Under the pieces are notes generated by a model. It worked only from the letters and a program-made list of their open reading frames with translations, did not search any database and was not told where the DNA came from. Source: Henricia sp. BOLD:AAB3569 (lineage: Eukaryota; Echinodermata; Asteroidea; Spinulosida; Echinasteridae). Taken from it: a stretch of 64,000 nucleotides of DNA. Of this stretch, positions 6,971 through 40,400 are shown piece by piece (the stretch's first letter is position 1; each line of letters starts with the position of its first letter). The DNA is taken from contig JBBELK010000298.1 of assembly GCA_037783545.1 (NCBI GenBank), positions 4,464,001-4,528,000 of the forward strand. Reading direction: 5' to 3'. Made by a program: the position numbers and the translations under genes.

Positions 6971-7148
6971 ACAGAATGGCGACTCCCGACTTGTCTGAAA
7001 TGGCTAGTAAGGAAGTGGCTGAACCCATGTTTGGTGTGTTGGACATTGTCTTAGTAACAGTCAGTCTGGGAATTGGAGTTTATTGGCTCTTCTTCAGAGT
7101 GAAAAAAACAGCCGAACAGCCTCCAGTAATCAAAAAGCTCTCCATGGC
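6971..7148 (+). CDS. POR: POR coding exon 1: start codon and membrane anchor
   Basis: Acceptor ttggtccacag precedes the exon and the ATG at 6976 sits 5 bases in, in a good context (cagaATGg). It encodes residues 1-57 plus two bases. An acidic lead is followed by a hydrophobic run ([20 protein letters not shown], residues 21-40) and a basic stop-transfer patch RVKK, the usual POR signal-anchor layout. Donor is GTAAGTA. An in-frame ATG at 6937 lies upstream of the acceptor and is probably intronic. Confidence 0.93.
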
Positions 7149-10100
7149 GTAAGTATATTATTGAGTGACAATGTGCTACTTAGGCCGGGGGGGTCACATG
7201 GGACAATTTTCATAATTACGCGATTGTGATATGACTATGATACGATCGCAATATTTCCAATGATGACCGGGGTCACACAACATACTTATTGTAATCAATT
7301 GTAATAAAGTGGGGTCACACGCACACACAACGAGGTCGTAATCGACTTGAGGTCTGGACAAACATGCACTCGAACGTCACTCGTCAAGTGTCCGACGTTC
7401 TGATTGCTTCATGAGGTTTGAGCAGTGCATCAAAAACGACACTTCATTTTCATGCAGGGGCTTAAGGGATGGATTGTAAGACAATGATGATAAAATTGGA
7501 TCATAAGCGTTTTTTGCCAATTTATTGTAATCCGATTACTGTTGGATTACAATCAAATGATGAGAATTCTCGCCGTTGACCGATTATGATACGATTACAA
7601 TAGATTTGGGGTCACACACAAAAAAATCTTGTAATTGTACTGTACAATAGTACCGTAATACTATAAATTATGAGGTTGTAATTTGTGTGACCCCAGCCTA
7701 AGGCCGGGGTCACACAGGAAATATCGTAATTACTCTATCATGAAACGATCATGATAGAATGAACGACGAGAGCGGTCACACTCAAATCTATCATGATAGT
7801 ATCACAATAGAAAACAACTAGATGATGAGAATTCTCTTCATGCACCTACATGTACATGTACATGTACATGTACACGTATCATGATACTATCATGATAGAT
7901 TTAGGGTCACACGGACAAAATCTCATAATGCTATAGTAATACTATGATAAAGTGGATTCTTGTAATTCGTGTGACCCCGGCCTAAGACATTATCTTTTTA
8001 TGGTCATTTCTGAACCACTGGGATGTGCACCACATTTTCTGAGAAAATGGTTAATACAGCAAAAAATGGAAATTATCACATAAATACCCAATACCCACAT
8101 GTTTATATTACAATAGTAAATGCATTTCATAAAGGAGAGACATGATTAATTTCTTATTTTTATTTTCAGCCCAACGTTAACCAGGGGCAGCAATGCGGGA
8201 TTCATCGACAAAATGAAATCATCAGTGAGTACTGAAATTTCCTTTTTGAAATAGGAAATAATGGGTTCAGTCCATAATCGAAGAAGAAAAAATAAAATGG
8301 ATTAGACAGGCCACATGTACTGTACACTGCGCATTACAAACCAAACACGGGAAGTCGGACTTGGGGGAAGTCTAGGCCTTACTGTGAGTTGAATTATTGG
8401 CTGATTGCCGATAATTCAAAATATTGACATTAATTGTTTGATAACTAAAGGTTCATCGATATTTTTATTTTTTCTCGTTGATGTCTCATTTGAAAGCGAA
8501 AAACTTTTACGTTTGTAGAAAATATCAATTCAAGAGAAGAAAAAAAAGGTGCCACACCCAAAACGCACGGACAAAACATCTTTAAAGCGAATTGGTGAAA
8601 TGGGCTAAGCAGCAAACTTACTCCTGGTTTGGTTTGTAGATAATGTCTGAGTGAATTTTTTTAATTGAAAAAAATGTAAGTGCAAGTTTAAAATAAATTA
8701 CAGGATTCGTGATATTTTTTTAAAAGGATACTTGGATTATGGTATGTTTTGTTATTGTTTTTATAAAATATTATTTAATTTCATTTTAGATTTCGTTTCG
8801 CTTCAGGCATGTGGCTGATTTGTTTCACATTGGAATTTGTTATTCCTCGTAGTACATGTATTTGGCTGTAAAAAATAAGTATTGTGCCCAAAATGGGTAT
8901 ACATCATTTGGTAAGGTCTGAAAAGTTGACCATTAGTTTTTTTCCGTAAAATGACTTAACAAGTTCACGTATCAGTGTGTGCAGATTTGATAGAAAAACC
9001 TAAATTTAGAAGTGGACAATTTAAGATTTTCTTAGAAAATGCTCAGCCAGTCTCACATGTTTTGTACACAAATTCTAAAGCCATGGTCAACTACTAATTC
9101 TTTTAAATGAAACTCTTCACGTACTTATTCTCAGTTAGCCTTCATTGTGCCCGAAATTGCTGTACGTTACAGAGGCTTTAAGTGCTAATGGGTTAACATG
9201 TCTTTGTCATTACTCAATTCCATTTTCCAAAAATGGCCATGATGCAAGTCCGTGATAGCAAACACGAACATCGCAAAAGCCACCCAATATATTTTTGGCA
9301 TTGTAACCTTCATACATGTATGTTGGGACAAATTAATCGTGATAAGCAATCTTGACTTGTGCTCTGTAGCCGGGCACAAGGTACTTCAACTTTGCCCCAT
9401 AGGACTACATGTGCACGGTGTCCACAGTTGCTGACTAAGGTACAAGTTAATGTACTTTTAAAATGCAATCAAACTTTTGCAAACTTTTTTCAAACATTAG
9501 AAAAAAATGCATCATGTTTTGCACCAGTACTAGATGGGTCTTTCCATGCTAATGGGCCTATTTGAAAAATAAGTCAATAATTCCTTTCAGATGTCTTCAG
9601 TTTATCTCAAACGTAAAGAAATTCCATTGTACTGTTCCCAGGAGATAACTTTTGCCAAAAAATGTAAGAAAATGCTGCCACAACATACATTTCTGTAAAG
9701 CTTGTGTACAAATTGTCCATATACGTATGTAACGGTGGACAGACAAAATTGTGACTTAAAAAAGACGAATCAGACCCGGGTCTGATGCGCCTTTTTCAAT
9801 GAACTCCCCTTTTTGAAGATTGCGGAGTTCGATTCGGCAAAGGCAAATCGAGTGTAAACGGGCCTTAATGCGCACATATTCACCCTGCTGTGTGTTTAAG
9901 GCCCAGCAAACCAAAAACAAACAAAATATTGTATTTGTTAATTTTATTTACGTCAAATTAACTTTCGTCTTCATTTGGGTTTTTTTTTACAGGGAAGAAA
10001 TGTTGTTGTATTTTACGGCTCTCAAACGGGCACAGCGGAGGAGTTTGCAACACGGTTATCCAAAGATTCGCAACGGTACGGAATGAAAGGGCTAATAGCT

Positions 10101-13100
10101 GACCCAGAGGAATGCGAAATGGTGAGTGTCTGTGTTGTGAGGTGTGCTTAAACAGAACTTTCTCATGATTGCTGTATTGTATGTACATGTATGTAAGAGC
10201 ATGTCTTGCAAGTAGATGTACAGTAAAGTATCGTCTTTAATAGACTGCCGAAGTGAATACGTCACCTTTTGTTGGTTGCCTAGGCAATTGGATCTAAACT
10301 AAAAATCACTCAACCGTGTCCCAGTGCTTATCCAATGGTACTTTTCCCGACGGCCATGATAGTTTAGATCCAATTGCCATGGCAACGCACGTCACACTTT
10401 GGCTGTCTATATGCAAGCATGGTTCTTGGATGGATAGTCTGTGTTAACATACATGTACCTCATACCATAAACGAAAGTCTCGTTCTCAATGACCCATTCA
10501 CTGTCACATGCTAGTGGTTATTTTTGCTATTTATTTTGTGGTTATTTTTTGCTGCTTATGCGCAAGCGTAGTAAACTACCCGGGAAACAGTTTACTATGC
10601 ATGCGCTTTATCATGTTTATTACAAAATAACTCTTTCTTGGCTACCCGGGAATAGTTTACTAGTACGCACGCACTTCACGAAGAAGCCGGGTTCAGTGCA
10701 TACCGGGTTTGGTATGTACATCAAGGTTCCTAAATCATCATCATTACCCCTGATCATAGGGCTCCATTAAATCACTTCAATATACCATCTCAGCTTCCTG
10801 GGGAGTAGACACACCTGCTTCGGAAGGAATGTAAAGCAATTGGTCCAGTGTGTTAATAGGTAATGCACTTTAAAGATGCCAGAGCATTCTTCCGTGAAGA
10901 GCAAGGGGACTCGCCGGTGTCTCTGGCTGTTTATAATTCATCATCTCCTCAAGGGTTTCCTTATGCTTGTGAGTGACAGTGCAGTGTTCTCCACTGCCGG
11001 TTTTGTACGGGCGCGCTGTACATGTACATGTTCATGTGAATCCAGTTATGTCTTCAGTAACCATGGTAACTCTTCATTTTGAAACTGGTTACACGTACAT
11101 GTACATACATATGTACATCTACATCTTCACAAAATGTGCATATTAGCACATTTTCTCTTCACTAACTACAAGGTACATGTACATGTACATCATGAAATGT
11201 GCACCTGACGAGGTTACCTCATGAATGCTACATGTAGTACCCGGTATCTGTTGTATTCCCATGTCCACCTGTCCATTAAAAAAAAGTATGCATTTCCTGT
11301 CTGTGATTTTGAAGTTGTGATTTTGAAGTTAAAATTTATACATATTTCCGGTTCTAAATACATGTAATAATGCTCGCAGTATACAAGTATGTAAAATACA
11401 TGTACTTACTGAGTACTTGTTAAATATTTTTTACATCCTGACCGTCTGATTATTCCTACATGTAGGTCAAAATGAATCTTCAGACGAAATTTACCACTTT
11501 TTACGTGTACTTTAGAAAAAAATCCAGATTCTGTGGACTTTAGCTCGTCGCTGGGACAGGCTAATTTGTTTGCGCACTTATTGGTCAATTTTTTACGACA
11601 CGTGGCCACGAGGTCACGTCTCTTTCTTGTAAACGGACGTAAAATTTTTCCCAGCAGACACGGCATGTCTTGCACACAGTACACTAATTTTATTCGTTAA
11701 CATACTATTTATTAATTATTCGTCTGGCAGCAAGCAACCCACATTGCTCCATGGGTCTGTACAGTGTACCGTATATGTTACCTTTGCGTCACGTGTTTCG
11801 ATCACAGAAATCTGCGATGGCACATCAGCCTGTAAGGGTGCTGGGTACAAGCGAATCATGGACTTTGCTATCTAAAACTGGGGTTTTTCTGTTTTTCATT
11901 TTGCAGTGAACGATATACATACAGTATGTACATGTATATTTTGGGATGAATTGAATTTGTGTCTCATGAGACGAAAAATAATTGTTTTACTCATTTCTCA
12001 AAGACTATAACACTTTAGACAAAACCATTTCAGGGGAAGTTATGTGTAAATCTGTGATCATTTCTGATTTTCGAGATACCAATCATGTATACTGCCTTGA
12101 AAGCGTGTGTGCATGAATGTTGTGAGCAAAGGAATAAAAACAAATTGAAATGGAAGTCATAAATATGCCTTATCATGACATTTCATTTCTTGTTAAATAT
12201 GTTGAATGCAGGAGGACCTATCACAACTGCCAGAAATAGAGAACTCAATGGTTATATTCTGCATGGCCACATACGGCGAGGGTGACCCAACTGACAATGC
12301 ACAGGAGTTCTATGATTGGCTACAAGATGGCGCTGTGGGACTGGCTGGCCTCAGATACGCTGTGAGTATAGACCGTATCGAATAGCTGCCACCTACAAGA
12401 CTACTTGGGCAACTTTTATTATTTAATTTGGTCATCAATGTGAGCACAAAATGCGCAACCATGTATGTCCTTACGGAACAAGGGAAACTGCAATTCGATA
12501 CGGTCTATTTTTTTATATTAAGTATATTTTGCCCAAAATGCTCTGTACATGTACATCTAGGCCATTAACATCACAATATCACAATGAAACGAGATAATAA
12601 TAAAAAATAATAATAACACAAGCATTTGTAAAGCGCCATCTATCTATGTAGACATATTCCGAGGCGGCTGTTGCCATTATTACCGCTGCCATCAGGGAAT
12701 CACCAGAACCATTTTGCTTCAACTAGGTGGCTGCTGGTCAGGCGCACAACCCTATCAGCAGTTAGATTGTGGCATTCCCCTTAACAGCTTCCCATATATC
12801 GCTTGGGTTGACGAGGCAACTGGGATTAAGTGCCTTGCCCAGGGACACAGACACGTTGGTCGAAGTGGGGCTCGAACCCCCAACCTCTGATTGGGAGTCC
12901 CGCTTCATACCCACTAGACCACACGCGCACCACAATAGACCGTATTGAATAGCTGCCACGTCTACAAGACTACTTGGGCAACTTTTATTATTTAATTTGG
13001 TCATCAATGTGAACACAAAATGCGCAACCATGTTTGTCCTTATGGAACAAAGAAACTGCAATTCGATACGGTCTATTTTATACGGTCTTTTTTATATTAA

Positions 13101-16100
13101 GTACATTTTGCCCAAAATGCTCTGTACATACATGTACATATCTAGGCCATTGACATCACAATATCACAATGAAACGAGATAAGTCGCGATTTAGATTATA
13201 ATGGATTCATGTATTCGACAAGGCACTGATGTAACAGTCACTTTGGAATTGCTTTCAAGACTGTTTCGCTTCAGTGATTTCATCCAGGTCCAAGCGGACC
13301 TATTTGAGCAAAGTAATCCTCACACCAATGAAATGACATTGACTGTTTCTGGGAGAAAGGGTTTTCTAAGGGTGACTAGAAAACAAATTTTGTTGGATTT
13401 TCAACCTGATGGAACCTGCATGGGATGAGCTAACCTCCGGAGCCGCATGTTTCAAAAACAGCTCTAGAAGTACAGGTTCTCAGGGAGGCACTTCAGGCAG
13501 AGTGGTGTACCCTGCCTCAGTGGCTCTCATGGAGGCTGGTTCAATATCAGCCTTGCCACAAGAGTTGTTTGTACATGTACATGTATGTATGTAACTGACT
13601 GATACAAAAATGTAAACTTCATCTATCAAGCTCTTCGATCTTTCAGTCACAATATGTGCATTTTATTTTTCATGCAACCATCAATTTGGAAATATACATG
13701 TACCAGGATCATGTGTTTTTTTTTTAAATGATAGGGAAACTACCAGTAACTTTGCCAATGTCCTTAGCTAAAAAGATAATCTGTGTCATGGAGTGCTCAC
13801 TGCACTCGGGTCACATCGCGTAAACGGCAAACTTGCAGTCTGCATGCGCGACAAAAGAATAGAGACATGCATCACAGAAAACCCTGAGAACTTTTGTGGG
13901 ATCTTTGATGTTGTCTGGAACAAACCTTAGAACCTTAGTGAGTTGTTGTTTCAGTTGTCGAGCAAATTCACATACATGTAAATTCCACCCATGTTCTGCC
14001 ATCTTCGTGCAAATCACATAACGCTCGTCGGTAGTAAGAGCACACTCCCCATTTGACAGGGGTAGCGAGAGCAAACACTAACCAGAGTGTCATTATACTT
14101 GCCATTCGTGCGTGCAGGAGTATTACTGACTTAGTACTGAGTACTTGTGTTAGAATGAGTACACGCCCGAATGCAGCCATGAGGTCGAAATTGATTCGGA
14201 TGTAACAGACACAATGACACAGCTTCAAGGAGTGATTAGGCAAATTCCTGACAAAAGGTGCAAGTGATCACCTTTTCCCTTTACCAACAGGTTTTTGGGT
14301 TGGGCAATAAAACCTACGAGCACTACAATGCAATGGGTATCTACGTTGACAAGAGACTGGAGGAACTGGGAGCAGAGAGGATCTATGATCTGGGTCTCGG
14401 TGATGACGATGGAAAGTGAGTTACAGGTCTCGGGTTCGAATCCTGATGAGGACCGTATGATTTTTATCTCATCCCATGTACATGTACGGTCATTTCATTT
14501 ATGTGTAGAATAGGCACCATACCAAAGATTGTGTTTGCTACTTTGCTCAGTTGTGCAACACCGAGTATCTGGCCGAATTGTCGTAGGTCTTAGGTTCGAA
14601 TCCTGATGAGGATCATATGATTTTTATATGTTTTTTGTTATTTGGTTATTTTGTTTTTGTGGAGAATAGGCACCGTACTAAAGACTGTGTTTGTTACTTT
14701 GCCATTCCGCGCATCCATGCAACATTGACTACGTGTACATGTATCTGCCTAGAGTGTCGAATGTCTCGGGTTCGAACTTGGATGAGGACCATATGAATTT
14801 TTTTCTTTTTCTTTGTCTCAATTACAGCATGGAAGAAGACTTTGTCACATGGCGTGAGCAGTTTTGGCCAGCCGTCTGCCTGCGGTTTGGAGTGCAAGCG
14901 ACTGGAGACGAGTCTAGGTATGGACAATGGGCTCGCTTCTATTACATTACCACAATTTGCAAGCCTCTCTTCTCTCTTCCCTCACTCCTTGCCCCTTTCG
15001 CCTTCCCTCTTCTCCTCCCCAAAAAAAATACAGATTAGAGCTGTGCACGGAATGTAAATCAGACATTCAAAAGTGCATATGATTTAATCATAATAATATC
15101 TAGGCATTTTTACATACATTGCCCACCAACTGTCGGGTTGCATTATGTAGCAATTTTTTTTCGGCAAAAAATTGCATAATATCGCGTTAATTGCAAATTT
15201 TGCAATTTGTTGCGATTTCTAATGACCTCTGCCGCAACATGCGCAAAAACATTTTTTAAAAATTGTGCTATTTTGTATTACCATACCTCAAACATATTCA
15301 TAAATGAAAGTTGCGTTCTTACTGGTCCATTCACTGTCACATGCCAGTAGTTATTTTTGCTGTTTATCCGCGTGCATGCCAAACGTGAAAGCGTAGTAAA
15401 CTACTGCCAGGGAAATAGTACGAAACAGCTGGGCGTAGCGCGCAGTACGTGCAACAGCACCACGCAGGTACAACAAGCGTGCACACACACAAGCTGAATG
15501 AAAAGATGGCTACACAAGCGAAATTTTACTTTCCGTTTTCTTGCGGTACCGGTAGGTGATTCCAAACTAGGGAAGAATATGTATGAGGTATGGTAAAACA
15601 AATATCACATGGTTCATTTCGCGTGGCTAGTCGATATTAGCTCCCCTCGGTATTTGAAGTTGACACTCTAGTTCCCTCGGCCTTCGGACTCGGGATCTAG
15701 CGTGTCAACTTCCAATCCCTGGGGGAGCTAATATCGACTATCCATGTGATATTTGTATACTTTTTTGGGGCAGGTTCAAAAGTAGCGCAACTGCTTGCGA
15801 AGCCATTTCGCAAGTTTCAGTTGATTTATATTATTTTGTTGTGAGCAGTTTTCATTACAGCAGTAAACATACCAGTACATTTCGATCTTACCTTTTAGCA
15901 TTCGCCAGTACTCCCTCAGAATAGAAGAGTTCCTTCCAGAGAAAGTCTTCACTGGTGAGGTGGCTCGCCTGGGCTCCTTCAGAACACAGAAAAGGTAAGA
16001 GAATTCTGAGTCACTTTTTGTAAATTTTGTAATATTTTGTAATGCATTCAAATTATATAGCTATATATCTTGAAATTACTCACAAGAAGTTGTTGCTAGG

Positions 16101-19100
16101 TCGACGGCTTGATCATTTTCCATACCGTCTTGTATGGTTTAAAGCCTGTAAACAGGATTTTTAATGTCCTAAAATTTTAATCGACTATTCTTTGGTTTCA
16201 AGTTCTTGACAACCGGTTGCTATCTTCCATTACTGTGTCCATACTATGGCACACCAAAGCGAAAATAACACTGTTAATTTAACGTCGACCCTAAAAAACA
16301 AGTCAACATAAAAAAGGTTGGCATGACTTTTAAATGTTGATAGACTGTTTGAAACCGGCATACCGTGCTTTTGTTGGCAAGTTTTTAAAAATGTATCCTT
16401 AACCACGCGTGAAAATAACGCCATTTTTAACAGTTCTCAAATCATGTAATCTGTTTTTAATTTTGAATAAAATTTGACATGTTATTGATAAGTTTCCGCA
16501 AATCCATTTTTGTGATCCATTTTTCTCAACAGACCATTTGACTCCAAGAACCCCTTCCTAGCTCCAGTCAAGGTCAACAGAGAACTGCACAAAGGCGGGG
16601 AGAGATCCTGCATGCACATTGAGTTTGACATCTCCGATTCCAAAATCAGGTCAGGAGATAAGGGTCTTAACATAAACAAACGGGAGCCAAAGTTTGACAT
16701 GTTGATGCTTTGTGCATGACATGCGCGCAGCGCAATCAAGAAAACGATCAGCGCGGACAGTGATTCTCTCAAAACAACAACGGAAGATTGCACGCACTAT
16801 CGCGTGGTCGAGCACACGCACTGATATCGTGCCCAACACATATTATGGGGATCCAGTGATAAAGGTGTATAGGACTCATCAGGGACTCGATTGAATAGGG
16901 TGTAGGGTCTACTGTTGTTTAAGTCTTTGTCACAGCGAACCCACGACGCATTTGTGCCACGACACGACAGAAAATTTGGGCAAATCGTGGGTCATCGGGG
17001 GTCGTCGCAAGACAGTCCTATGAAATTCTAAGCATCGTGGCATCGACTTGCTGTCGTGAGGCAAAATTGGACATGCATCTTTTTTGCTCGACGATTTTTT
17101 TTTGTGGTATCTATGTCTTGTGGCTGTCGTGAGTCTGTCCTACGACAGTCTTACGAAAAAACAGACCAGGCCTTGTTATATAGTCGGGAGACAGACGCGC
17201 GAGCGTCCCACGAGTGACCCACGACTGTTGTGCGACAGTCTTGCGACAGTCGCACGCGCATCCTACGAGTGAACCACGACCTAATCACGTGAAAAACAGC
17301 CCCTGACAATGCCCGACAACTTACGATGCTCCCACGAATGTCGCACGACTGACTTGCGACACACCCACGACATAACCACGACATATTTTTTTTTCTGTCG
17401 CGTCCCCATCGCCAAACCATCTTTAATGTGTCTTAGCCCTTGTGACCACTCGAAATAGATTTCAGGCATGTTGCAGGATCTGGCCACAACAAATATTTTA
17501 TGGGTCTACCACGACAAAATTTCGTACGATACGTTGTGCCCGGGGCTTTATGGCCGGCTGGGATCATGAAATTGAGTCTTTTTACCGAATTTGTTGGCTT
17601 GTTCAGGTACGAAGCCGGAGACCACGTGGCTGTATATCCCATCAATGATGAGGCTCTCGTTAACAGGATAGGAGAGCTCCTGGAGGCTGACTTGGATGTG
17701 GTTATAAGCTTGGACAATGTGGATGGTAAAACTCAAAATTGCTTGCTTATTTGTTAATTCAAATGTTATTTGTAGTTGCACTGGTAGAGCATCTGCCCGG
17801 TGAGTCGGAGGTCTCGGGTTTGAATCTCGATAAGGCCCTTACAATTTTTCTCTCATCCCAAGTTTGGTTGTTTCATTTCAATGGTGATCGGGCACCATAC
17901 CAGAAGTTGCATTTGTTACTTTGCACAGTTGCGCTACCATGTAACACCGACAGGAAAATTGCGTCTTTAGGAAAAACCTGAGGAAGTATGGGTCATTCTA
18001 TAAATTTGGGGTCCAATTTTTCTGTCCCCTTTTACGTCTGACATCTTGTAAAATGTTGTAGTTTGTAAATTCAGGACATATTCTTTAAATGCCTTCTATT
18101 TCATGGAGTGATTACATAAACTACAATTCATAAAAATATGTTTTGAAGGCATTTTTAATAATACTTGTATGGCAAATGGCAGTACATTGTATGTCATGTG
18201 TAACAAGGACAGGAAAATGTCACACGTTGGACCCCAAATTTATAGAATGACCCGTATACCAAATGTGCCTTATAGCTCAGCTGGTAGAGCATCCGCCCGG
18301 TGAGTCAGACGTTCGAATCCTAATAAGGCCCTTACGATTTTTCTCTCATCCCAAGTTTGGTTGTTTCATTTCAATGGTGATTAGGTACCATACCAGATGT
18401 TGCGTTAGTTTCACTGTAAAATTAGCAGGGTTTCCTTCAAAGGCAAAATGACAATGACATGTAGAAACAGCACATTCAAACATGATGTTGGGAGGAACAC
18501 AGTGAGAAGCAGTCAGACAGAAAGATGGGTTGGAGTGGAAAGCCAATTATGGGGAAAAAAAAGGGCAGGTCTGGGGCTGGAGGGTGAACAAAATTGGGTT
18601 GAAAAATTTGGATTTTTCAACCACGTGTTTTTGTACATTTCTCTACAGAGGACGCCAGTAAGAAACACCCATTCCCCTGCCCGTGCACCTACCGCACGGT
18701 ATTCTCACACTACTTAGACATCACGTCACCTCCCCGAACCAACGTACTCAAGGATATATCAGAGTATGCCACTGATCCCAAACACAAAGAGTTCCTGCAG
18801 TTGCTCAGCTCGGCTACTCCAGAAGGAAAGGTGAGCTAGCTTTCTTATTCATAAATACCTAAGACAGTTTATCCATTTGTATTGGTTGAGAACATGTCAT
18901 GTGGTCAGTTTTGATTGGACGATGAAAACTGATTGGCCTAGTTTTAAACACTTTGTAGTCGATAGTCAGTTTTAGTGCATATGGAATGCACATTCACACC
19001 TAATGCATAGTTCCGAGATTGCCCAGTTAACCCCCGCCCCTTAGATATTGTTGCTATGTGCTCACAAGCCATCGCAAAAAAATGGCGACACAACGTACAA

Positions 19101-22100
19101 AGCAACGGGACTCGGCATGGAAAGTACAGATTCATTGGAGAAAACTCAAAAGGTATTTATGTTTTAGGGTCGACAGTTACCGTAGCACACACTGAGCGAA
19201 GGGCTAGTAATGCAGGGATGACATATACATGTATTCATAAAAATGCGCTTTCCTACCTTTGAAAAGCAAATCACCCGACATTGAAACCAAAATTCACCCG
19301 GTCACTGGCGCATACAACATACAAACTGTATGGGCAGAAAATCGCGTGATTGTGTGATGATTGCATCACTTTGACCTATGTGGGCGCCGTCTGCTAGCTC
19401 TGTTGTGATTGGTCGGTGGGTTTGGCTTAATTGACAGGCCGGAACTATGCATTGGGCACAGTGTGACAAAAATTAGCCATGTTCACAGGTATACTGTGCG
19501 TAATATGTGTGATCGAAGACAAAACATTAAACTACAAGATGTACAGCACTTTGAACAACCTACAACAAGACCTGTAGGAAAGCACACAAGATTAAACAGC
19601 GAAACTTACTGTCATGGAATGGCAGGCAGTTTTACTTGAATATCTTGGACTCTGGCCGTTATCAGTGTCGGGGCCAATTTAATGGCGCCGTTTAGCACAC
19701 AAATTTGATTAGCACAGAATTTCTTTTCCTTGTAAAATGTGTTACAAACCAAATGTGTATGTCAAATTGTGTTTTTAGAAACAGTAGCAAAATATTAGTA
19801 AATACACATCACATACGATTTTGGCTGGCAACCCATTTTTGCAATACAAGACACCTTTATTCCCTCATTGAAAGCCATGCAATTTGTAACACACCTCTTA
19901 TGATTTACTTAGTATTACACCTGCAATTTTTTTACCACCCCCCCCCCCCCCCCCCCACCCCCGCCACCCCCTCCCCCCTGCTCTCCTGCATGCAAGCCAT
20001 ACACATCTGTCTAGACTACCCTCCCCCACCCAGAGTATGATAAAATACCAGGGCTTGAAATGCATAGTTCCGAGATTGCCCAGTTAACCCCGCCCCTTAT
20101 ATACTGTTGCTATGTGCTCACAAGCCATCGAAAAAAAATGGCGACACTACGTACAAAGCAACGGGACTCGGCATGGAAAGCACAGATTCATTGGAGAAAA
20201 CTCAAAGGTATTTATGTTTTAGGGTCGACAGTTACCGTAGCACACACTGAGCGAAGGGCTAGTAATGCAGGGATGACATACATGTATATTCATAAAAATG
20301 CGCTTTCCTACCTTTGAACAGCGAATCGCCCGACATTGAAACAAAAATTCACCCGGTCACTGGCGCATACAACATACAAACTGTATGGGCAGAAAATCGC
20401 GTGATTGTTTTTGATGATTGCATCACTTTGACCTATGTGGGCGCCGTCTGCTAGCTCTGTTGTGATTGGTCGGTGGGTTTGGCTTAATTGACAGGTCGGA
20501 ACTATGCATTGGGCACAGTGTGACAAAAATTAGCCATGTGCACAGGTATACTGTGCGTAATATGTGTGATCGAAGACAAAACATTAAACTACAAGATGTA
20601 CAGCACTTTGAACAACCTACAACAAGACCTGTAGGAAAGCACACAAGATTAAACAGCGAAACTTACTGTCATGGAATGGCAGGCAGTTTTACTTGAATAT
20701 CTTGGACTCAGGCCGTTACCAGTGTCGGGGCCAATTTAATGGCGCCGTTTAGCACAAAAATTTGATTAGCACAGAATTTCTTTTCCTTGTAAAATGTGTA
20801 TGTCAAATTGTGTTTTTAGAAACAGTAGCAAAATATTAGTAAATACACATCACATACGATTTTGGCTGGCAACCCATTTTTGCAATACAAGACACCTTTA
20901 TTCCCTCATTGAAAGCCATGCAATTTGTAACACACCTCATAAGATTTACTTAGTATTACACCTGCAATTTGTTTTACCCGCCCCCTTCTCTCCTGCATGC
21001 AAGCCATACACATCTGTCGAGACTACCCTCCCCCACCCAGAGTATGATAAAATACCAGGACTTCAAATACCCACACCATGTTTGATTTGCAGAAAGAGTA
21101 CAGCGAGTGGGTTATCCTGCCATTGTAGCTATCCTAGAGGAACTGCCCTCACTCAAACCACTCCTGGACTGGTGGCTTCCCCCTGGGAAAGCTAAACGAA
21201 CAAACCTAATACTGACTTGAAGCAATTGTGTTTGATTTGCAGAAAGAGTACAGCGAATAGGTAATCCATGACCATTGTTGTAGCTATCCTAGAGGATGTG
21301 CCCTCACTCAAACCAACCCTGGACAGGTGGCTTCCCCATCAGGGTAACATCCCGGGGAAGCTAAACAAATGCATCTAATACTGACTTGAAGCAATTGTGT
21401 TTGATTTGCAGAAAGAGTACAGCGAGTGGGTAATCCATGACCATTGTTGTAGCTATCCTAGAGGATGTGCCCTCACTCAAACCACCCCTGGACAGGTGGC
21501 TTCCCCATCAGGGTAACATTCCGGGGAAGCTAAACAAATGCATCTAATACTGACTTGAAGCAATTGTGTTTGATTTGCAGAAAGAGTACAGCGAGTGGGT
21601 GATCCATGACCATCGTAGCATTGTAACTATCCTAGAGGACTTGCCCTCGCTCAAACCCCCCCTGGATCATCTGTGTGAGCTGTTGCCCCGCCTGCACGCT
21701 CGCTATTACTCCATATCATCATCGCCAAAGGTGGGTCCTGGGCTGCTTTTCGAGCGCGGCACCAGGGATCCCTGGTGTTCCCTGGTGCTCGCCCGAAAGC
21801 GCGTTGGTGCACCAGATAGTGGCACCAACTGCTCCCGACCTCCGAGTCGTCGGTACAACTAGGAGACATGCGCAGTTGCGCGTACTCACGCATGACTCGG
21901 CGAAAATGGCTGGCGCGTTGTAGAATGATTCTGGAAATTTGGGTTGATATTTTGAATGTTCAAGCTTCCACATCGAAACCAAAAGTTGTAAATATTTTCA
22001 TGAATTATTTTCATCAGATATCTGTGATTTATTTTGTGGAAAACAAAGATTTTATTAGCAGGGATGTAATTTCTAATGACCGTGGTGCACCAGGGATCAC

Positions 22101-25100
22101 GATAACGCTTTTGAGCGCGTTTGTGTGTACGCATGTGTGTGACGTAACGTTCCCAACGCCTGGGAGCACCAGGGACAAGCGCTCGAAAGCAGCCCTAGAT
22201 GAGCATTTACATGTGATGGGGTCATTTTGTTACTGTGTCATCCTTATAAGATGCTTTTAAAAAACTGGGGTTTTGAACTCGTGTAGCCGACGACCGTTTT
22301 ATTAAAAACATAATTCAGCACAGCAAACAGCCTTAGAGCAAATATGCAAATGTCCCCTAATTGATAATAGAACGCATCATGCTCATGATAGGTTTGGTGA
22401 AATCCACCGCAGCATCCATCGTAGCCACGATCCATCGCAGCCCTTGAATCTATCGCAAGTCTTATTATGGACCTTAATTTTAATACAAAGAGTTGGGTGA
22501 AATCGACTCCTGGACTGTTAATATACTAATTTTTCACCTTGTAGTTCAATAAGGCCCTTACGATTTTTCTCTCATCCCAAGTTGGTCGTTTCATTTCAAT
22601 GGTGATTAGGCACCATACCAGATGTTATGTTCCTTGCTTGTAGTTCTTGAGATTACACCCAAATGCAATGCCCAGACAGTACTCGAGAGTAGCAAGAATG
22701 ACGGGTTCGATTGCAGCCATAAAGAATCTTACAGGACAAAATTGTTCCAAAATGTGAAACTTAGGTCACACGAATAACAACATCCCAATTTATTGTAGTA
22801 TTACTATTGTACAAATACAAGATTTTGTGCATGACCCCCTAAATTTATCGTAATTGATCAACGCCGTGAATTCTCATCGTCAATTGAGTTCAGACAGTAC
22901 TCGAGAGTAGCAAGAATGACGGGTTCGATTGCAGCCATAAAGAATCTTACAGGACAAAATTGTTCCAAAATGTGAAACTTAGGTCACATGAATAACAACA
23001 TCCCAATTTATTGTAGTATTACTATTGTACAAATACAAGATTTTGTGCATGACCCCCTAAATTTATCGTAATTGATCAACGCCGTGAATTCTCATCGTCA
23101 ATTGTATCCCGATTGTAATCGATTACAATAAATTGGCAAAAACCCTGTAAGCCCCAGCTTTAAAGTGATGCCTGGAATGCTTTGTGTGGCAAGTGATGTC
23201 TTTAATGCACTGCTCAAATTACACAGAGCATTCAGAGCGTAAGACGCTTAGAAAGTACCATGTTGGACAGAAATACATTCATGTGGTATTCATTGACATT
23301 GCTATCAGTACATTTTTTTAATGTCTACTTGTGAAGTAACATTTTGGATCAATGCAAATGGTACAATGAGCCTGTCACTATATTATTGTTATTCACTGCC
23401 CACAGCTGCACCCAACGAGCATCCACATCACAGCAGTACTCACCCGATACACCACCCGCGTGGGCCGCCAAGTCAACGGCGTGGCTACCTCATGGCTCAA
23501 ATGCAAGGTGCCCAACGGTCCCCAGAACCTGCCCACCGTGCCAATCTACGTGCGCAAGTCGCAATTCCGTCTGCCGTTCAAGCCTTCAACGCCGGTCATC
23601 ATGATCGGTCCTGGTACAGGACTGGCTCCCTTCAGGGGGTTCATCCAGGAGAGATACCACGCTAAGAAGGAAGGTAAGAAAAGTTGAATTTCAGAATGGA
23701 CGTATACAAAATTATCGCAAAACGGTGTATATCCATTTTAGGCATCTTGATAAAATAGTCTTTTTAAAATTCTCCTAAATACTGTTTAGTGTAATGTGCA
23801 AATAGCCGTTGAACGTCTTTGTAGATAGCATTTTTACGTGGACGCATTTTCCGTAAAACACACATGAAATACATTAGTTGGATTCGGTGATTGTCGTAAT
23901 GCGAGGGGTGTCGGTGACGAGGGCCGCAAGTTCTTTTTCTTATTCTTAGACATCCCCCACTCAAGAAACATCTTCTTGGGCATTATGAAAACAAATAATG
24001 TTTTTCATTCGTTTAGTGTTACGTATAGTTTCATTCGTTGAAAGATGGAATTATTTCATTCAGCTCAGATTCGCCTCATTAAATGGAACATTCCATCTTT
24101 TAAAGACATTACATGATTAGACAACTTTTAAAAACAGGAACAGCATTACACAAGTAAAGAATAATGTTGATAAACTGCCTTGTAGAACTTTCAGCAAAGA
24201 TGCAGTAATACTTCAGAAAACCTTGCATGGTAATTGTGTTGAATGAATGGTAAAAACAAATTGTCTGCAGACAAAATGTTCTTTAAAAAAAAAACCTTCA
24301 GTTGGCAATTTATCCGTTATCAGTTGGCAATTTATCCCACAAAAAAATCATGTGGTGTTTGTTACCTTTGCTATAAACACTTTATAGTAGGGTTTTTCTC
24401 GTCAACTTGTGAAGTAAAATTTTGGGTAACTGCAAATAATGTAATGGGGCTTTATCTCTTGAAAATACAGTAAACTCCAGCTATTAGCTGGTAACTTGGG
24501 AGTGGAAAAACCGCGGCCAATGCACTCAGACCGCGGTATGACCTTTTCTCAAAGGCGCCTTTTAGACGAAATGACGACTTACAAATGCCGACTTAGAAAC
24601 AAACATTTCAATGGAAATGCATTGTAGACGATCTGGACTTTCGTCGGACGGCCGACTTAGGCGATTTGCTGACTTGTACGATGTCGACTTGGCCGGAGTG
24701 TACTGTATTTGTATCACTGAATTCAGAAATATTCCTTAATTTGTATACTGCAACCCACAGGCAAACCCCTGGGAGAGACCATCTTGTTCTTTGGCTGTCG
24801 TAAGCGAGACCATGACTACATATATGAGGAGGAGCTGAAGGATTACGTGGACAACCAGACGCTGTCGGAAGTCCTCGTGGCCTTCTCCAGGGAGCAAGAT
24901 GAGAAACAGTACGTGCAGCATCTCATGCTCAATCACAAGGAGAAGATCTGGCAGTTACTGGATCAGGGAGGGCACATCTACGTCTGCGGGTGAGTGCACA
25001 GTTTTTGTTTAACAGTATTGCGTGTCAAAGGCTCCGTTCTCACAAGAGAAATCGCTTCTTTCGACGATTAGTTAATCATTGTAGGTTAATAAAGCGTCCG

Positions 25101-26240
25101 TTCCCATCTCACTTAACAAAGATCGAACGAAGATTAATTGAAGAGCGGTATCGTTCACAATAGGTGACCCCTAACGAAGATCGAATGAAGCTGTGCAACG
25201 CTCCCATTTTGGTACGTGTTAAATTGCTTCGTCAAAGTGTTCGGATTACAAATTTGCTTCGTCAAATGAAGCAATCCCTTTGTCGAATAAAGAAGCATGC
25301 GTTCACATAAGGAAATTTCTTCATTGAATTGTCCTTAAATCTTCATCAAACGAAGCGATTTCTCTAGTGAGAACATGGTCAATCTCGGGACCTTGGTTAA
25401 AGACCTAGTCACACGTGCGCATCAAGCATGAGTGCAATGCGTTGAATGCCAGGTGTCTTAGCCTGCGTCAAAACGCCTTGTCATCGGTCAAATGATTGTG
25501 TTTGTCTAGCGACAACACGTTTCTTTCACTCCACCCTCCCATCATCGCATCACTGCCAGCAGCAGAGGACTGTTTTTATGTCTAGTACCCTGGTCCTGTA
25601 TGTTTGTCTGTCCATAGGTTAGGGTACAAAAGCTAATCGCTTCACCTTATACCTAGATGTTGTCCATTGTATTTAATTTTCTTGCTCAAATTACATGTAC
25701 ACTATTGCTACTGCTTTGTACACATTATTTGGGTTCAACACATCAATATTATGCAATATGTATTGTTTGTATTTATTGTGATAAATGACAACATTGAATT
25801 AAATGTTCCTGAACTGAACTGTCTTGGAAGAAGAAAAAAATTCCCAAAATGAACAATTTTTTTCGTTCACAAAAATCTCCACTGGTATTCAGCCCCAACT
25901 GCAGACTGATCATCCAACTTGGCGTCCTTAGCTTTAGTGGGTGCGGGCTCTCAGGCTGTAATTTCAAAATCACGAAAAGACCTGTACCCTCGCTTAAATG
26001 CCAGGAGTTGGAGTTTCGCTTTCATGCAAATCACAGCCCAAACCAGTATACATGTGTGCTTATTTTCGAATGCCTAAAATGTATTCGTATTCCAGAGATG
26101 CCCGAAACATGGCGCCTGACGTGCAGAAGGTAATCCGAACCATCATCAGTGAGCACGGCGACCAGACACATCAAGAAGCTGAAGATTTCATCAAGAAACT
26201 CCAGTCCAAGGGACGCTATGCATGCGATGTATGGAGTTAA
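6971..26240 (+). CDS. POR: NADPH-cytochrome P450 reductase, complete 14-coding-exon gene
   Basis: Transfers electrons NADPH to FAD to FMN to microsomal cytochrome P450s, haem oxygenase and similar acceptors; anchored in the ER membrane with the catalytic part cytosolic. Joined coding exons are 6976-7148, 8170-8224, 9993-10121, 12212-12361, 14291-14415, 14828-14917, 15899-15994, 16533-16649, 17607-17725, 18649-18830, 21581-21730, 23406-23673, 24761-24989 and 26096-26240. All sites are GT-AG and all phases join, giving 2028 nt or 675 aa; vertebrate POR is about 677-680. Visible: one membrane segment (about 20-40), FMN loop [10 protein letters not shown] (84-93), [11 protein letters not shown] (139-149), LGLGDDDGN (203-211), FAD motif RYYSISSS (453-460), GVATSWL (487-493), NADPH loop [13 protein letters not shown] (529-541), HIYVCGDARNMA (623-634), and penultimate Trp 674, which in the family stacks on FAD. 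The start at 6976 follows a splice acceptor, so a 5' untranslated exon lies upstream and was not found. Identity is near certain. Confidence 0.97.
7178..7699. mobile_element. TTAGGCCGGGGTCACA MITE, first of an adjacent pair
   Basis: Starts ttaggccggggggtcacat and ends tgtgaccccagcctaa; the interior carries gattacaat/atgata words. It abuts the related element at 7700-7986 in POR intron 1. Confidence 0.75.
7700..7986. mobile_element. TTAGGCCGGGGTCACA MITE, second of the pair
   Basis: Starts aaggccggggtcacacagg and ends tgtgaccccggcctaag. An internal TACATG microsatellite lies at about 7850-7875. Confidence 0.78.
8170..8224 (+). CDS. POR: POR coding exon 2: hinge after the anchor
   Basis: A 55-bp exon with acceptor tattttcag and donor GTGAGT, residues 58-76 (…GFIDKMKSS). 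It corresponds to the flexible tether joining the anchor to the FMN domain in vertebrate POR (…SFVEKMKKT). Too short to be seen as an ORF; found by phase and similarity. Confidence 0.93.
8225..9992 (+). other. POR intron 2
   Basis: AT-rich, with no gene and no clear repeat family recognised apart from scattered TACATGTA words and a short palindrome (cagacccgggtctg) at about 9771-9784. Confidence 0.6.
9993..10121 (+). CDS. POR: POR coding exon 3: FMN-phosphate loop
   Basis: In-phase 129-bp exon after a poly-T/acag acceptor, donor GTGAGT. It encodes residues 77-119 starting [18 protein letters not shown], the flavodoxin-fold first strand and FMN phosphate-binding loop, then [13 protein letters not shown]. 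Nearly identical to vertebrate POR. Confidence 0.97.
10239..10410. mobile_element. ATAGAC-ended palindromic MITE in POR intron 3
   Basis: The ends atagactgccgaagtg and cactttggctgtctat face each other, and inner arms tggatctaaacta and tagtttagatcca pair. Confidence 0.65.
10795..10990. mobile_element. SINE 3' part (family shared with 53313-53575)
   Basis: ttcggaaggaatgtaaagc…ttggtccagtgtgtt…aagatgccagagcattctt…ggtgtctctggctgt matches the fuller copy at 53.3 kb. Confidence 0.65.
12212..12361 (+). CDS. POR: POR coding exon 4: FMN domain, [11 protein letters not shown]
   Basis: A 150-bp phase-0 exon, residues 120-169. It contains [19 protein letters not shown], in which the Tyr stacks on the FMN ring in the family, followed by EFYDWLQ. 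Donor GTGAGT. An AGACCGTATCGAAT-ended repeat begins a few bases after the donor. Confidence 0.97.
12369..12597. repeat. AGACCGTATCGAAT MITE plus flank, copy 1
   Basis: The inverted ends agaccgtatcgaat and attcgatacggtct bound about 140 bp; a further 85 bp after it is also shared with copy 2 at 12937-13182. The first end begins just after the exon 4 donor. Confidence 0.75.
12598..12935 (-). mobile_element. tRNA-derived SINE, minus orientation
   Basis: On the minus strand: A box-like tggtctagtgggtatg, B box ggttcgagccc, then gggcaaggcacttaatccc, a body, and a tail ending in ATT/ATA repeats. Same family as 61503-61785. Confidence 0.75.
12937..13182. repeat. AGACCGTATCGAAT MITE plus flank, copy 2
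   Basis: About 90% identical to 12369-12597 by eye over the whole length, including the non-transposon flank down to aatgaaacgagataa. Confidence 0.75.
13990..14183. repeat. Dispersed repeat, inverted copy of 4103-4271
   Basis: The reverse complement shares ttcgggcgtgtactc and ctctcgctac blocks with the 4.1-kb copy. Confidence 0.6.
14291..14415 (+). CDS. POR: POR coding exon 5: FMN domain, GLGNKTYEH and GLGDDDGN
   Basis: Acceptor ccctttaccaacag, donor GTGAGT, 125 bp, residues 170-210 plus two bases. It shows [16 protein letters not shown] (second FMN-ring contact) and [10 protein letters not shown] (third FMN loop). Confidence 0.97.
14422..14800 (+). mobile_element. Run of three partial tRNA-SINE copies in POR intron 5
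   Basis: Three occurrences of ggttcgaa(t/c)…gatgaggaccatatgatttt (about 14435, 14590, 14768), each a B-box half followed by SINE body (aataggcaccatacc). The A-box halves are degraded. Confidence 0.65.
14828..14917 (+). CDS. POR: POR coding exon 6: end of FMN domain
   Basis: A 90-bp exon, residues 211-240 plus two bases ([17 protein letters not shown]…), matching the last helix of the FMN domain. Acceptor ctcaattacag, donor GTATGG. Confidence 0.95.
15280..15760. repeat. Dispersed repeat with inner palindrome in POR intron 6
   Basis: attcactgtcacatgcyag…ttttgctgttta and tatgaggtatggta are shared with 10470-10660 and 42840-43310. The segment about 15630-15740 is a hairpin (gtcgatattagctcccc against gggggagctaatatcgac). 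Confidence 0.6.
15899..15994 (+). CDS. POR: POR coding exon 7: FMN/FAD linker
   Basis: A 96-bp exon, residues 241-272 ([20 protein letters not shown]…). It covers the linker between FMN domain and FAD/connecting domain, the least conserved part of the protein. Acceptor ccttttag, donor GTAAGA. Confidence 0.92.
16533..16649 (+). CDS. POR: POR coding exon 8: start of FAD/connecting domain
   Basis: A 117-bp exon, residues 273-311: [19 protein letters not shown] then [15 protein letters not shown]. These align with vertebrate PFDAKNPFLAAVTTNRKL and [14 protein letters not shown]. Donor is the less usual GTCAGG. Confidence 0.95.
16915..17425. repeat. GTCGTG/CACGAC-rich block in POR intron 8
   Basis: About 500 bp packed with cacgac, gtcgtg, gcgacagtc and cccacga words on both strands, with no frame conserved. 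A degenerate palindromic element is likely. Confidence 0.6.
17607..17725 (+). CDS. POR: POR coding exon 9: [11 protein letters not shown]
   Basis: A 119-bp exon, residues 312-351 plus one base. It contains [14 protein letters not shown], the conserved FAD-domain barrel strand, then a helix ([15 protein letters not shown]). Acceptor ggcttgttcag, donor GTAAAA. Confidence 0.96.
17768..17985 (+). mobile_element. tRNA-headed SINE in POR intron 9
   Basis: Degraded A box (ttgcactggtagagcat), B box (cgggtttgaatctcg), then the family body acaatttttctctcatccca…ttcaatggtgat…gggcaccatacc and a 3' part through aaaacctgagg. Confidence 0.75.
17990..18252. mobile_element. TGGGTCATTCTATAAATTTG palindromic MITE
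   Basis: Inverted ends TGGGTCATTCTATAAATTTG and complement; interior ggacatattctttaaatgcc. Copies at 43711-43966 and 47638-47884. Confidence 0.85.
18268..18405 (+). mobile_element. tRNA-headed SINE with paired acceptor stem
   Basis: gccttatagctcagctggta (A box) … ttcgaatcctaataaggc (B box). The first seven bases GCCTTAT pair with ATAAGGC, so the tRNA ancestry is plain. Not a tRNA gene: body sequence follows and the anticodon arm is not normal. Confidence 0.78.
18649..18830 (+). CDS. POR: POR coding exon 10: connecting domain
   Basis: A 182-bp exon, residues 352-412: [39 protein letters not shown], ending SSATPEGK. It matches the vertebrate connecting-domain helices. Donor GTGAGC. The following intron carries the tandem duplications described separately. 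Confidence 0.96.
19004..20060. repeat. ~1.06-kb tandem duplication, unit 1 (POR intron 10)
   Basis: Contains a TGCATAGTTCCGA element (19004-19452), a SINE/MITE-like stretch, a partial GGGGCCAATTT MITE (19670-19855) and a poly-C tract. It is repeated almost base for base in unit 2. Confidence 0.88.
19936..19957. repeat. Poly-C tract, about 20 C
   Basis: An uninterrupted run of C present in unit 1 only; unit 2 has a short C-rich stretch at the same place, so the tract expanded after, or collapsed since, the duplication. Confidence 0.85.
20061..21068. repeat. ~1.0-kb tandem duplication, unit 2
   Basis: Begins tgcatagttccgagattgcc like unit 1 and ends agtatgataaaataccaggactt. Differs by small indels and the shorter C tract. 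Confidence 0.88.
21079..21227 (+). pseudogene. Broken partial copy A of POR exon 11
   Basis: Acceptor tgtttgatttgcag then KEYSEWVI from 21093. About 10 bp are missing relative to the real exon, and the frame stops after two more residues (TAG). Only the 5' half of the exon plus intron flank was copied. Confidence 0.85.
21228..21396 (+). pseudogene. Broken partial copy B of POR exon 11
   Basis: Same acceptor, KEYSE then TAG at the Trp codon (pseudo-exon starts 21243). A 5-bp deletion further shifts the frame. Downstream tail …ggtggcttccccatcagggtaac is shared with copy C. Confidence 0.85.
21397..21566 (+). pseudogene. Broken partial copy C of POR exon 11
   Basis: Same acceptor, [11 protein letters not shown] then frameshift by the same 5-bp deletion (pseudo-exon starts 21412). 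169 bp from copy B and 169 bp from the functional exon. Confidence 0.85.
21581..21730 (+). CDS. POR: POR coding exon 11 (functional copy): FAD-binding RYYSISSS
   Basis: Acceptor tttgatttgcag, phase-0 150-bp exon, residues 413-462 from [20 protein letters not shown] to [17 protein letters not shown]. The Arg-Tyr-Tyr-Ser motif binds the FAD phosphate and ring. This is the only intact copy: three broken copies of its 5' half and acceptor lie just upstream. Donor GTGGGT is followed within 10 bases by the end of a DNA element. Confidence 0.97.
21739..22195. mobile_element. GGGCTGCTTTCGAGCGC element abutting the POR exon 11 donor
   Basis: The ends gggctgcttttcgagcgc and gcgctcgaaagcagccc bound 457 bp. 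The related copy at 40033-40470 lies in opposite orientation. It starts 9 bases after the exon 11 boundary, just beyond the donor consensus. Confidence 0.85.
22270..22513. mobile_element. Partial copy of the 905-bp element at 45661-46565
   Basis: gaactcgtgtagccgacgac … gaaatccaccgcagc … aaatcgactcctgg matches the right third of the 45.7-kb element. Confidence 0.75.
22545..22632 (+). mobile_element. SINE body fragment (tRNA head missing)
   Basis: aataaggcccttacgatttttctctc … ttcaatggtgattaggcaccataccag: only the body of the tRNA-headed SINE family. Confidence 0.7.
22673..23104. repeat. 218-bp tandem duplication (POR intron 11)
   Basis: Two nearly identical units, 22673-22890 and 22891-23104, starting cagacagtactcgagagtag. 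The second half of each is a fragment of the gtcacac/gaccccc MITE type seen at 7.2-8.0 kb. Confidence 0.88.
23406..23673 (+). CDS. POR: POR coding exon 12: FAD GVATSWL and NADPH loop
   Basis: A 268-bp exon, residues 463-551 plus one base. Order: [17 protein letters not shown] (FAD pyrophosphate), [10 protein letters not shown] (NADPH-side Arg/Ser/Lys region), [17 protein letters not shown] (NADPH-binding Rossmann loop). GC-rich, codon-biased and very close to vertebrate POR. Confidence 0.97.
24761..24989 (+). CDS. POR: POR coding exon 13: NADPH domain
   Basis: A 229-bp exon, residues 552-627 plus two bases. It contains [31 protein letters not shown] (2'-phosphate recognition Ser-Arg and Tyr region) and HIYVCG. 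Acceptor aacccacag, donor GTGAGT. Confidence 0.97.
25030..25380. mobile_element. CCGTTCTCACTAG-family MITE in POR intron 13
   Basis: ctccgttctcacaagagaaatcgc at the left and gcgatttctctagtgagaac at the right; same family as 6447-6853. Confidence 0.78.
26096..26240 (+). CDS. POR: POR coding exon 14: C-terminus and stop
   Basis: Acceptor cgtattccag, residues 628-675: [11 protein letters not shown], a helical stretch, and terminal GRYACDVWS followed by TAA at 26238-26240. The Trp before the final Ser is the aromatic residue that shields FAD until NADPH binds. Possible AATAAA signals occur near 27119 and 27410; the 3' end is unmapped. Confidence 0.96.
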
Positions 26241-37459: not shown

Positions 37460-40400
37460 CTAAACAAAAACGTGACACATAAAAACCTTACATGTACAAA
37501 GCTAAGGGGCGAACTTATGAAAATCTGTGCCAGACAAAAATTCCTTTTTTTATTGTTGGGTAAACACGACAAAATGATGGAAATGCTCTCAAAATTTGTG
37601 ACCATTATAATCACCTGGTACTGGTGTTGCGTCCTTTTTTGTTTGACTGCGATAGTGATGCATCACTATCCCGAGGAGGCAGGGAACCAGCCCTAGCTGG
37701 TGTCCTGCTTTTGCAGCTTGGTGAACTGCCTTCAGAATAATTCACACTTATGCTGGTGCCCTCTGCCATTTTGGTGCTTCGCTACGAAACAAAATTTCAT
37801 TAAAAAATCTTGAGAATGTACTCAAATTCTGCAGTCGGGCTTCTCCAGTTCTCAGTAAAATTTTATACAGCAGGGTCATTCCATGAAGTTGCAGAATGGT
37901 TTCCCTTACATCCGACACATTTTTTCCTTTTTTTTTGCCCTCGATAACACCATGAATCAACAGTACTCCGAAATTTCAACTGCTGAATGAGCAATTTTAA
38001 AACTTTCATTACTTGTAATAAAATCCACCATCAGACGTCAACAAAGTAAAGTTTTGAGCAAATGCAGGTGTGGCATTTGGTGTTTTTCCCCAGATTTTTC
38101 ATGAACCACAAAGAAATTCAATATAGAATCCTCCAAATTCAAATTAAATAGGATTGTCTAGTTTGAGAACCGTTTGTTAATTCAAATTCCACATGAAGCA
38201 ATTTGGAGTTGGAGTGAAAAAAGTTAAATGGACATCGTGTCCAACCACCACATGAAAAAGGTTCAGTGTGAAAGCACCATTATTTACCTGGGATGAATCA
38301 GATACTGGCTGGATAACAGCTGTCTGTTTTTTAGTGGTTCTCCTTTGGCTGCTATCTAATGAATCCTCCTCCAACGATTCCTCAAGATCTTTGGGTTTCA
38401 TCCTTGGCCTCTTGGGCAAAGGTGGCTCCTGAGCCTTGGAAACTGTAAGAGACTCTAGGCCTTTCTGGCTCTTCGAGGAAATACCAGCTGGTGTGCAGTT
38501 GGTGTTTCCGAAGGCGGCTGCTTTTTGGAACTTAGAGGGGCTTCGCGGCGATACCCCTTGTTGCATCAAGTCCGAATTCAAGCTCGCCTTGTCTGCTGGA
38601 TTGGAGTGTTCCACTGACCTAGCCACTGGCATAACCGGGGTCACCGTTTTCGATACCTTGCCCTTTACACCACCTGTGATGGTCAACGATTTACGCTTGG
38701 CCGACATGGACTTTGATGAAGGTTCTTGGGGTAACTCTGGGGTGGTTCCTTGGCACTCTTGTCTAATCCGCCTGATGCCCTCTGAGACTACATCATTAAT
38801 AGAGAAGGTCCTACGCTCCGAAGTCTTGGTCGACTGCAATTTACTTTTAGAAGAGTTTGGGACGGGTTGGAGATGCTTGAAAGAAGAAGCTTCAACATAC
38901 ACATCACTGTCGCTTGATTCTTGCGGTTTCCAGGGGATCCTAGTCATCTGAGCTGACCGAGAGAGCTTCTTTTGTTTCTTAGCACCGGAGGTGTTAACAG
39001 GAGTGCTTGTGAGTTGTTTGGCATCAACAGTCCTGAGGAATGAGACCCTTGAATCTTTTGGGCCTCTATTCAATTCAGACAAGGACTTTAAAGTCCGCTT
39101 CTTTTGGGGAAAAGCACGTCTTAATCCTTCCGACTTGTCATTTTCATCTGCTGAAATGCAGGAATCGGAGACAACCTCGACTTCATCATTGGCTTGTTCT
39201 TTGTCTTGGGATGGTTTGTGGCTTTCAATGCTCTCCTTGTTGCTGCGCCTGACTGGAGTGAAGAACGTTAGGATGCTGGACTGGTTATGGTCCTTAGATC
39301 GGAGGTGCATGCAATACCCACTTTGGCTGGTTTCTTCCGAAAGCGGCTGCTGCATTTTGGGAGCCACGGAGGATTTCGTCAGGCTCTTTGTGCCAGGCCT
39401 CTTGGGTGAAGGGTCAACAGCTCCCTCTGCCTTCAAGTCTTTGGCATCATCTTTCTCAAGAGCTTGCTTAACTTTCTTCCTTCCCCTATTTTTAGCTCCA
39501 ATCTGTTTTCTCTTGTCAATTTCCTGCATGGAGGGTTTTGTTGTGAACGAAATCTCATCATCAACCACAATCCAAGATTTGGACTCATCCTTGGCCTGTT
39601 TAGAGTTCTCTCCCTCCGTATCTATTCCATGTCTACAAATTTGGGTTTCGGGAATGACTAGGGCATTATCATCGCTTTCTTGAATCTTTGAAGCTGGCCA
39701 AAGGGCCTTCTCTGCAACAACAGGATCATCTCTTGGTTCCGCCATCTTCTGTGCCTTTAACAAGTTGTATCTCTGCTCCTCAAAGCTCTTTATCTCCTGA
39801 ATGTCAACATCGGAGGATGGACTTGTGTCCATGTCAGATTCACTGTCAAACCTGCTGTCTTGTGAAGGTTGAGGTTCCTCGTCAAGTGAGCTGGGAATGG
39901 CTTCTTCAATCTCGGGATTTTCCACATCACTGAAATTGTCATCGTCTTCCTCCTCACTAGATTCCTATCAACAAAGACAAAAAGGTATGATCAATTAATT
40001 GACATTTATGGAGTACCAAGAGTGAGAAATTGGGGCTGCTTTCGAGCGCTCGTCCCTGGTGCTCCCAGGCATTGGGAACGTTGCATCACACACATGCGTA
40101 CATACGATCGCGCTCAAAAGCGTTATCGGGATCCCTGGTGCACCACGGTCATTAGAAACTACATCCCCACTAATAAAATCTTGGTCTTCCACAAAATAAA
40201 TCACAGATATCTGATGAAAATAAATCATGAAAATATTTACATTTTGTTTCGATGTGGAAGCTTGAACATTCAAAATATCAACCCAAATTTCCAGAATTAT
40301 TCTCGACGCGCCAGCCATTTCCGCCGAGTCATGCGTGAGTACGCGCAACTGCGCATGTCTTCCATTGTCCCGACGACTCGGAGGTCGGGAGCAGTTGGTG

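Follow-up and report, generated by a model that had tools for sequence, protein, structure and literature searches.

Why does an intact exon of the POR gene stand at the end of a row of damaged copies of its own beginning, and which of the acceptors in this row would splicing use? We addressed these questions in a window of 64,000 nucleotides, the whole stretch of genomic DNA that was analysed, and by searches of the genome to which it belongs (740.7 Mb in 2104 contigs).

Layout of the array and its gene

Repeat finders and self-comparison showed that a single 3' splice-site region is present four times, in register, at positions 21079–21730. Three broken copies (A, B and C, 21079–21580), each made of the terminal part of intron 10 followed by as many as 86 nt from POR exon 11, start at 21079, 21229 and 21398, with spacings of 150, 169 and 169 bp, and lie upstream of the working copy (D). 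TRF reported a 169-bp tandem array (score 807), and the repeat finders placed a 39-nt acceptor block at 21079, 21229, 21398 and 21567. The sequence-only reading, that the end of intron 10, the acceptor and the start of exon 11 are repeated three times in tandem at 150–169-bp spacing, was borne out by both approaches. The acceptor motif TTTGATTTGCAG occurs four times, ending at 21092, 21242, 21411 and 21580, and the working acceptor of exon 11 (21567–21580, plus strand), TGTTTGATTTGCAG, is common to copies A, B, C and the working copy.

Copy A (21079–21228, plus strand), whose AG ends at 21092, has a 76-nt exon-like part (21093–21168) and a 60-nt spacer; it reads KEYSEWVI and then LPL before a stop, and it lacks the GTAAC donor stretch (14-nt gap). 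Copies B (21229–21397) and C (21398–21566), also on the plus strand, have AGs ending at 21242 and 21411, exon-like parts of 81 nt (21243–21323 and 21412–21492) and 74-nt spacers, that of copy C being the intron sequence directly upstream of the working acceptor. Copy B stops after KEYSE, while a 5-nt indel relative to the working exon shifts the frame of copy C, which runs through 34 out-of-frame codons before it reaches a stop; possible donors follow 21343 in B and 21512 in C. The lesions of B and C are as first read. In copy A the reported stop is present, but three residues rather than two separate it from KEYSEWVI. The start of the exon is indeed repeated, but for somewhat more than the 75 bp or so first suggested, as homology reaches exon nucleotide 86 and 76, 81 and 81 nt of this stretch of the working copy are kept in A, B and C, respectively.

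Exon 11 itself (21581–21730, plus strand) is intact, 150 nt long and in phase 0, and ends at the donor AAG/GTGGGT. Its peptide (50 residues) matches solved POR structures (best E 1.1e-16). Thirteen POR coding exons were located, from about 6988 to 26240; the stretch for about residues 58–76 of human POR was not located between the first and second of them, and 21581–21730 is the tenth located and probably the eleventh coding exon. When 11 of the 13 located exons, exon 11 included, were joined by script, they read in frame. A tandem boundary copy at most 2 kb away was found for 1 of the 13 (blastn, plus strand, E 0.01). When the whole genome was searched at the DNA level, with 40 of 481 first-look candidates scored, the exon part (query 1–88) matched at least four places, all of them in the POR array.

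Directly left of the array, a 1057-bp tandem duplication (19002–21068, plus strand; two units, 92% identical) fills most of intron 10, and parts of its unit match other places in the window. Further repeats were observed in the vicinity. TRF found a 218-bp unit twice (99% alike) at 22673–23104 in intron 11, and a dispersed repeat at 21737–21780 begins a few bases past the exon 11 donor; this repeat was the target of 39 of the 43 matches listed in the genome search (40 of 481 candidates scored). In the 10 kb that adjoin the window on its left, there is a tandem array with a 1364-bp offset (L009:1–9437, 99.4% alike). On the minus strand of the window, a 595-codon open stretch (38177–39964) had no Pfam match at E 0.001.

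In amphioxus, intron-exon boundaries that are duplicated in tandem in the manner of a minisatellite have been termed mirages (PMC3087553). The same anatomy was found at POR, where tandem repeats span the exon-intron boundary and the working boundary is intact at one edge of the array. We assign a probability of about 0.85 to the reading that the POR array is a mirage, produced by repeated local tandem duplication of the 3' splice-site region. The duplicated block would have held roughly 90 nt from the end of the intron and 80 nt from the start of the exon, and its copies may have been generated by unequal exchange or replication slippage. When such a duplication spans the boundary, the remainder of the exon would stay attached to the rightmost copy and the gene would survive, and the copies to its left would become intron and then decay or drift. 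The stops, frameshifts and deletions in the copies count in favour of the mirage reading.

Splice signals of the copies

Each duplication would be harmless if splicing keeps to the last acceptor. Splice sites were ranked with matrices built from 11 other POR acceptors and from 11 POR donors; these are small and weak and serve for ranking only, as the leave-one-out scores of real sites spread from -4.5 to 12.4 for acceptors (n=11) and from 0.8 to 10.4 for donors (n=11). Identity to the working acceptor extends 60 nt upstream and 20 nt downstream in C, 37 and 14 nt in B, and 14 and 20 nt in A. Among the 145 AGs of intron 10, D, C and B take the first three places with equal scores, with A in eleventh place. 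The decoy acceptors of B and C score 8.0, and real acceptors fell below this value in 9 of 11 leave-one-out cases. The earlier statement that the broken copies keep good acceptors is supported; those of B and C are identical to the real one near the splice site and top-ranked.

The donor that B and C had been said to share was recovered as a consensus match, AGG/GTAACA, with last exon bases 21343 and 21512. It ranks fourth and fifth of 158 GTs, and the real exon 11 donor ranks second. Acceptor and donor occur together in B and C only, where by consensus match they would delimit an exon of 101 nt, which is not a multiple of three and would break the frame. On these predicted sites, B or C could in principle give rise to a 101-nt poison exon, in line with the poison-exon transcripts that the sequence-only reading thought possible. 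Under a regulatory explanation, B or C would be spliced in as 101 nt, or as part of a longer exon that runs on into exon 11, and would introduce a premature stop, the share of such transcripts tuning the level of POR. The decoy acceptors match the real one and score above every other AG in intron 10, and the common donor ranks high among the GTs, both by the weak matrices; on paper, B and C would be out-of-frame cassettes with a premature stop, as poison exons are. The donor of B and C, however, has C at +5, which is found neither in any of the 11 POR donors of the matrix nor in the real exon 11 donor. Copy A is without this donor, and B and C are a close and recent pair. Furthermore, amphioxus mirages are reported not to give aberrant mRNA (PMC3087553, PMC3902484). 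We consider a regulatory poison exon improbable.

The copies are most likely neutral by-products of local tandem duplication, with splicing at the last acceptor. Through exon definition that acceptor would normally be taken, because no other acceptor of the array is followed by a complete exon and a strong donor.

Divergence of the copies and two arrays in EDC4

Copies B and C are separated by 4 differences in 169 positions, whereas in the acceptor-exon part copy C differs from the working copy by 7 differences and the 5-nt indel. In the same part, A and the working copy are separated by 9 differences and a 10-nt gap. Across the four copies, 3–11% of aligned positions differ in the exon parts and 1–13% in the spacers, with distinct indels. 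The interior units B and C are more alike than the edge units A and D, and the closeness of B to C against the larger divergence of C from the working copy suggests that B and C are the youngest pair and that the edges, A and the working copy, are older. Turnover of interior units beside a stable edge would produce such a pattern. The copies keep the Ala of mammalian POR (AIL) at a position where the working exon has Thr, which indicates that they descend from exon 11 itself.

Arrays of similar construction were found in EDC4 of the same genome. The sample consisted of twenty 10-kb stretches, 18 at dispersed-repeat places and two flanking the window, chosen regardless of genes, with four more added. 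The array counts are not a rate, since POR was the starting locus and EDC4 was found through its arrays. Array i (L028:1037–1463, minus strand) consists of three units at 161-bp intervals that precede one exon, and array ii (L028:2349–2619, minus strand) has two units 158 bp apart before another exon; both are of the intron-end plus exon-start type. Their like design (161 and 158 bp) counts in favour of the mirage reading. EDC4 was identified by Pfam matches of four exons to Ge1_WD40, of which three passed the curated cut-off and the fourth fell slightly short of it (28.1 vs 29.5 bits). A decayed copy gave a weak match (E 0.008), and another EDC4 peptide had no PDB match. The array i exon had no Pfam match and matched designed SAKe proteins in PDB weakly (E 7.4e-7); we presume this exon to belong to EDC4 from its place in the gene and from the human protein.

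Array i recurs on contig C151 (1043346–1043849) with the same layout and three units on both contigs. Its real exon is 99% identical between C151 and C168, and the identity of the copies to the real exon is 89 and 89% on C151 and 93 and 91% on C168. C151 represents either a second haplotype or a recently duplicated region. The globin mirage described in amphioxus differs in unit number between haplotypes (PMC3087553); no such difference was seen at this array, the one present on two contigs, and this may count against the mirage reading. In the 304-kb sample, 13 other tandem arrays were viewed by eye for coding sequence, and only EDC4 was recognised. An eye count gave 29 near-tandem arrays (25 sources, 303,999 bases), 10 of them with offsets of 139–187 bp, near nucleosome length. 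Satellites of 77–78 bp were seen in L011, L019 and L031.

An assembly artefact at POR, in which the assembler had piled up heterozygous or repetitive sequence, would also yield tandem copies. POR exon 11 lies on one contig among the matches listed (40 of 481 candidates scored), and an additional-file legend of PMC3087553 records the misassembly of a mirage in a draft genome. The divergence and the distinct indels of the copies are nevertheless too great for repeated reads of one locus, and the presence of array i on two contigs in equal layout argues against assembly error at that EDC4 array. An artefact is very unlikely to explain the POR copies.

All three copies end at the same point of the exon and then enter a shared spacer. 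When positions 15000–25000 were compared with themselves (E 1e-5), this spacer matched neither the 3' half of exon 11 nor intron 11. On this ground copied intron 11 and the 3' part of the exon were rejected as sources of the spacer. Complete open copies with donors, a feature of mutually exclusive exons, are absent, all three copies being stopped or frameshifted and the 3' part of the exon missing from them. Degenerate tandem exon duplication, in which once-full, mutually exclusive copies of exon 11 would have lost their 3' halves, agrees with the retained exon start and ancestral residue but not with a common end point leading into one unmatched spacer, and is scarcely tenable.

The spacer itself fits the mirage reading imperfectly. 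Upstream of copy A it was not recognisable (242 of 500 shuffles reached the score), and the same was true upstream of EDC4 array ii (229 of 500); upstream of array i it is traceable (3 of 500). At copy A and array ii the missing spacer is at odds with plain duplication of an intron-plus-exon block and counts against it. The 1057-bp duplication beside copy A may have replaced its upstream spacer. More generally, insertion of other repeats or divergence at the edge may account for missing upstream spacers.

Probable mirages beyond amphioxus

The mitochondrial genome bears on the identity of the host. When cox1 codons were compared with one mammalian COX1 chain, AAA faced Asn at 9 of 13 positions and Lys at 0 of 13, ATA faced Ile at 15 of 26 and Met at 1 of 26, and TGA faced Trp at 14 of 14. 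As read from these codons, the mitochondrial code is that of an echinoderm, and the host is not a cephalochordate, which places it outside the known range of mirages, a range that is no part of their definition. An amphioxus host, suggested at first by the likeness to published mirages, was rejected on this code. In agreement, the mitochondrial contig that carries cox1 measures 16,221 bp, compared with about 15 kb in amphioxus, and a search for the fluorescent-protein family gave no match, although this second point is weak, as the control for it gave no match either. The mitochondrial order is 12S(+), 16S(-), nad2(-), nad1(-), cox1(+), nad4L, cox2, cox3, nad3, nad4, nad5, nad6(-), cytb, the names beyond cox1 and the rRNAs being a reading of open frames; we take this order to be that of a starfish. 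Contig C955 (48,576 bases) carries three cox1 genes at 16,221-bp spacing, with mitochondrial genomes head to tail, and this arrangement is probably an assembly concatemer.

The BflGb6 globin mirage has 150–160-bp units made of the 3' end of an intron and the 5' part of an exon, with six and three units in two haplotypes and 81–100% identity between units (PMC3087553). Its interior units are homogenised and its edges are not, and many units keep AG/GT signals, which according to the authors could act as cryptic sites; RT-PCR suggested normal splicing (PMC3087553). Further amphioxus mirages are those of Adh3, TnC and PGBD5 (PMC3902484), with units of 10–72 bp in Adh3 (PMC3087553) and of 60 and 108 bp in PGBD5 (PMC3902484). 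Either boundary can be repeated, and the Adh and TnC mirages are reported without aberrant mRNA (PMC3902484). Amphioxus mirages have also been proposed as a route of intron gain.

Among the papers listed in our literature searches, mirages were described from amphioxus only. The POR array is a mirage case new in an echinoderm, a phylum different from that of the amphioxus cases, and three mirages in two genes of one echinoderm suggest a process wider than amphioxus. The lengths of the units are near nucleosome size in both hosts: 158, 161 and 169 bp here and 150–160 bp in BflGb6 (PMC3087553). It is conceivable, though rather doubtful, that boundary duplication is genome-wide in starfish as in amphioxus, two deuterostome phyla, with a unit often of about one nucleosome, set by a nucleosome on the exon start, and that it continually supplies decoy splice sites and new introns. 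Such loci also offer tests of splice-site choice, with several near-identical 3' splice sites in a row of which the machinery must choose the last.

Among known systems, intron gain by tandem genomic duplication (for example PMC4974935, PMC3443670) likewise involves local intragenic duplication carrying splice signals; at POR, in contrast, no new intron is seen, and the extra units lie inside an existing one. The Adh3, TnC and PGBD5 mirages are like the POR array in having tandem repeats over splice boundaries of an ordinary gene. BflGb6 is the nearest published case. It differs in its amphioxus host, its two haplotypes and its RT-PCR, whereas the POR array is known from one contig of an echinoderm, but the two are closely similar in their intron-end and exon-start composition, their unit size and the likeness of their interior units.
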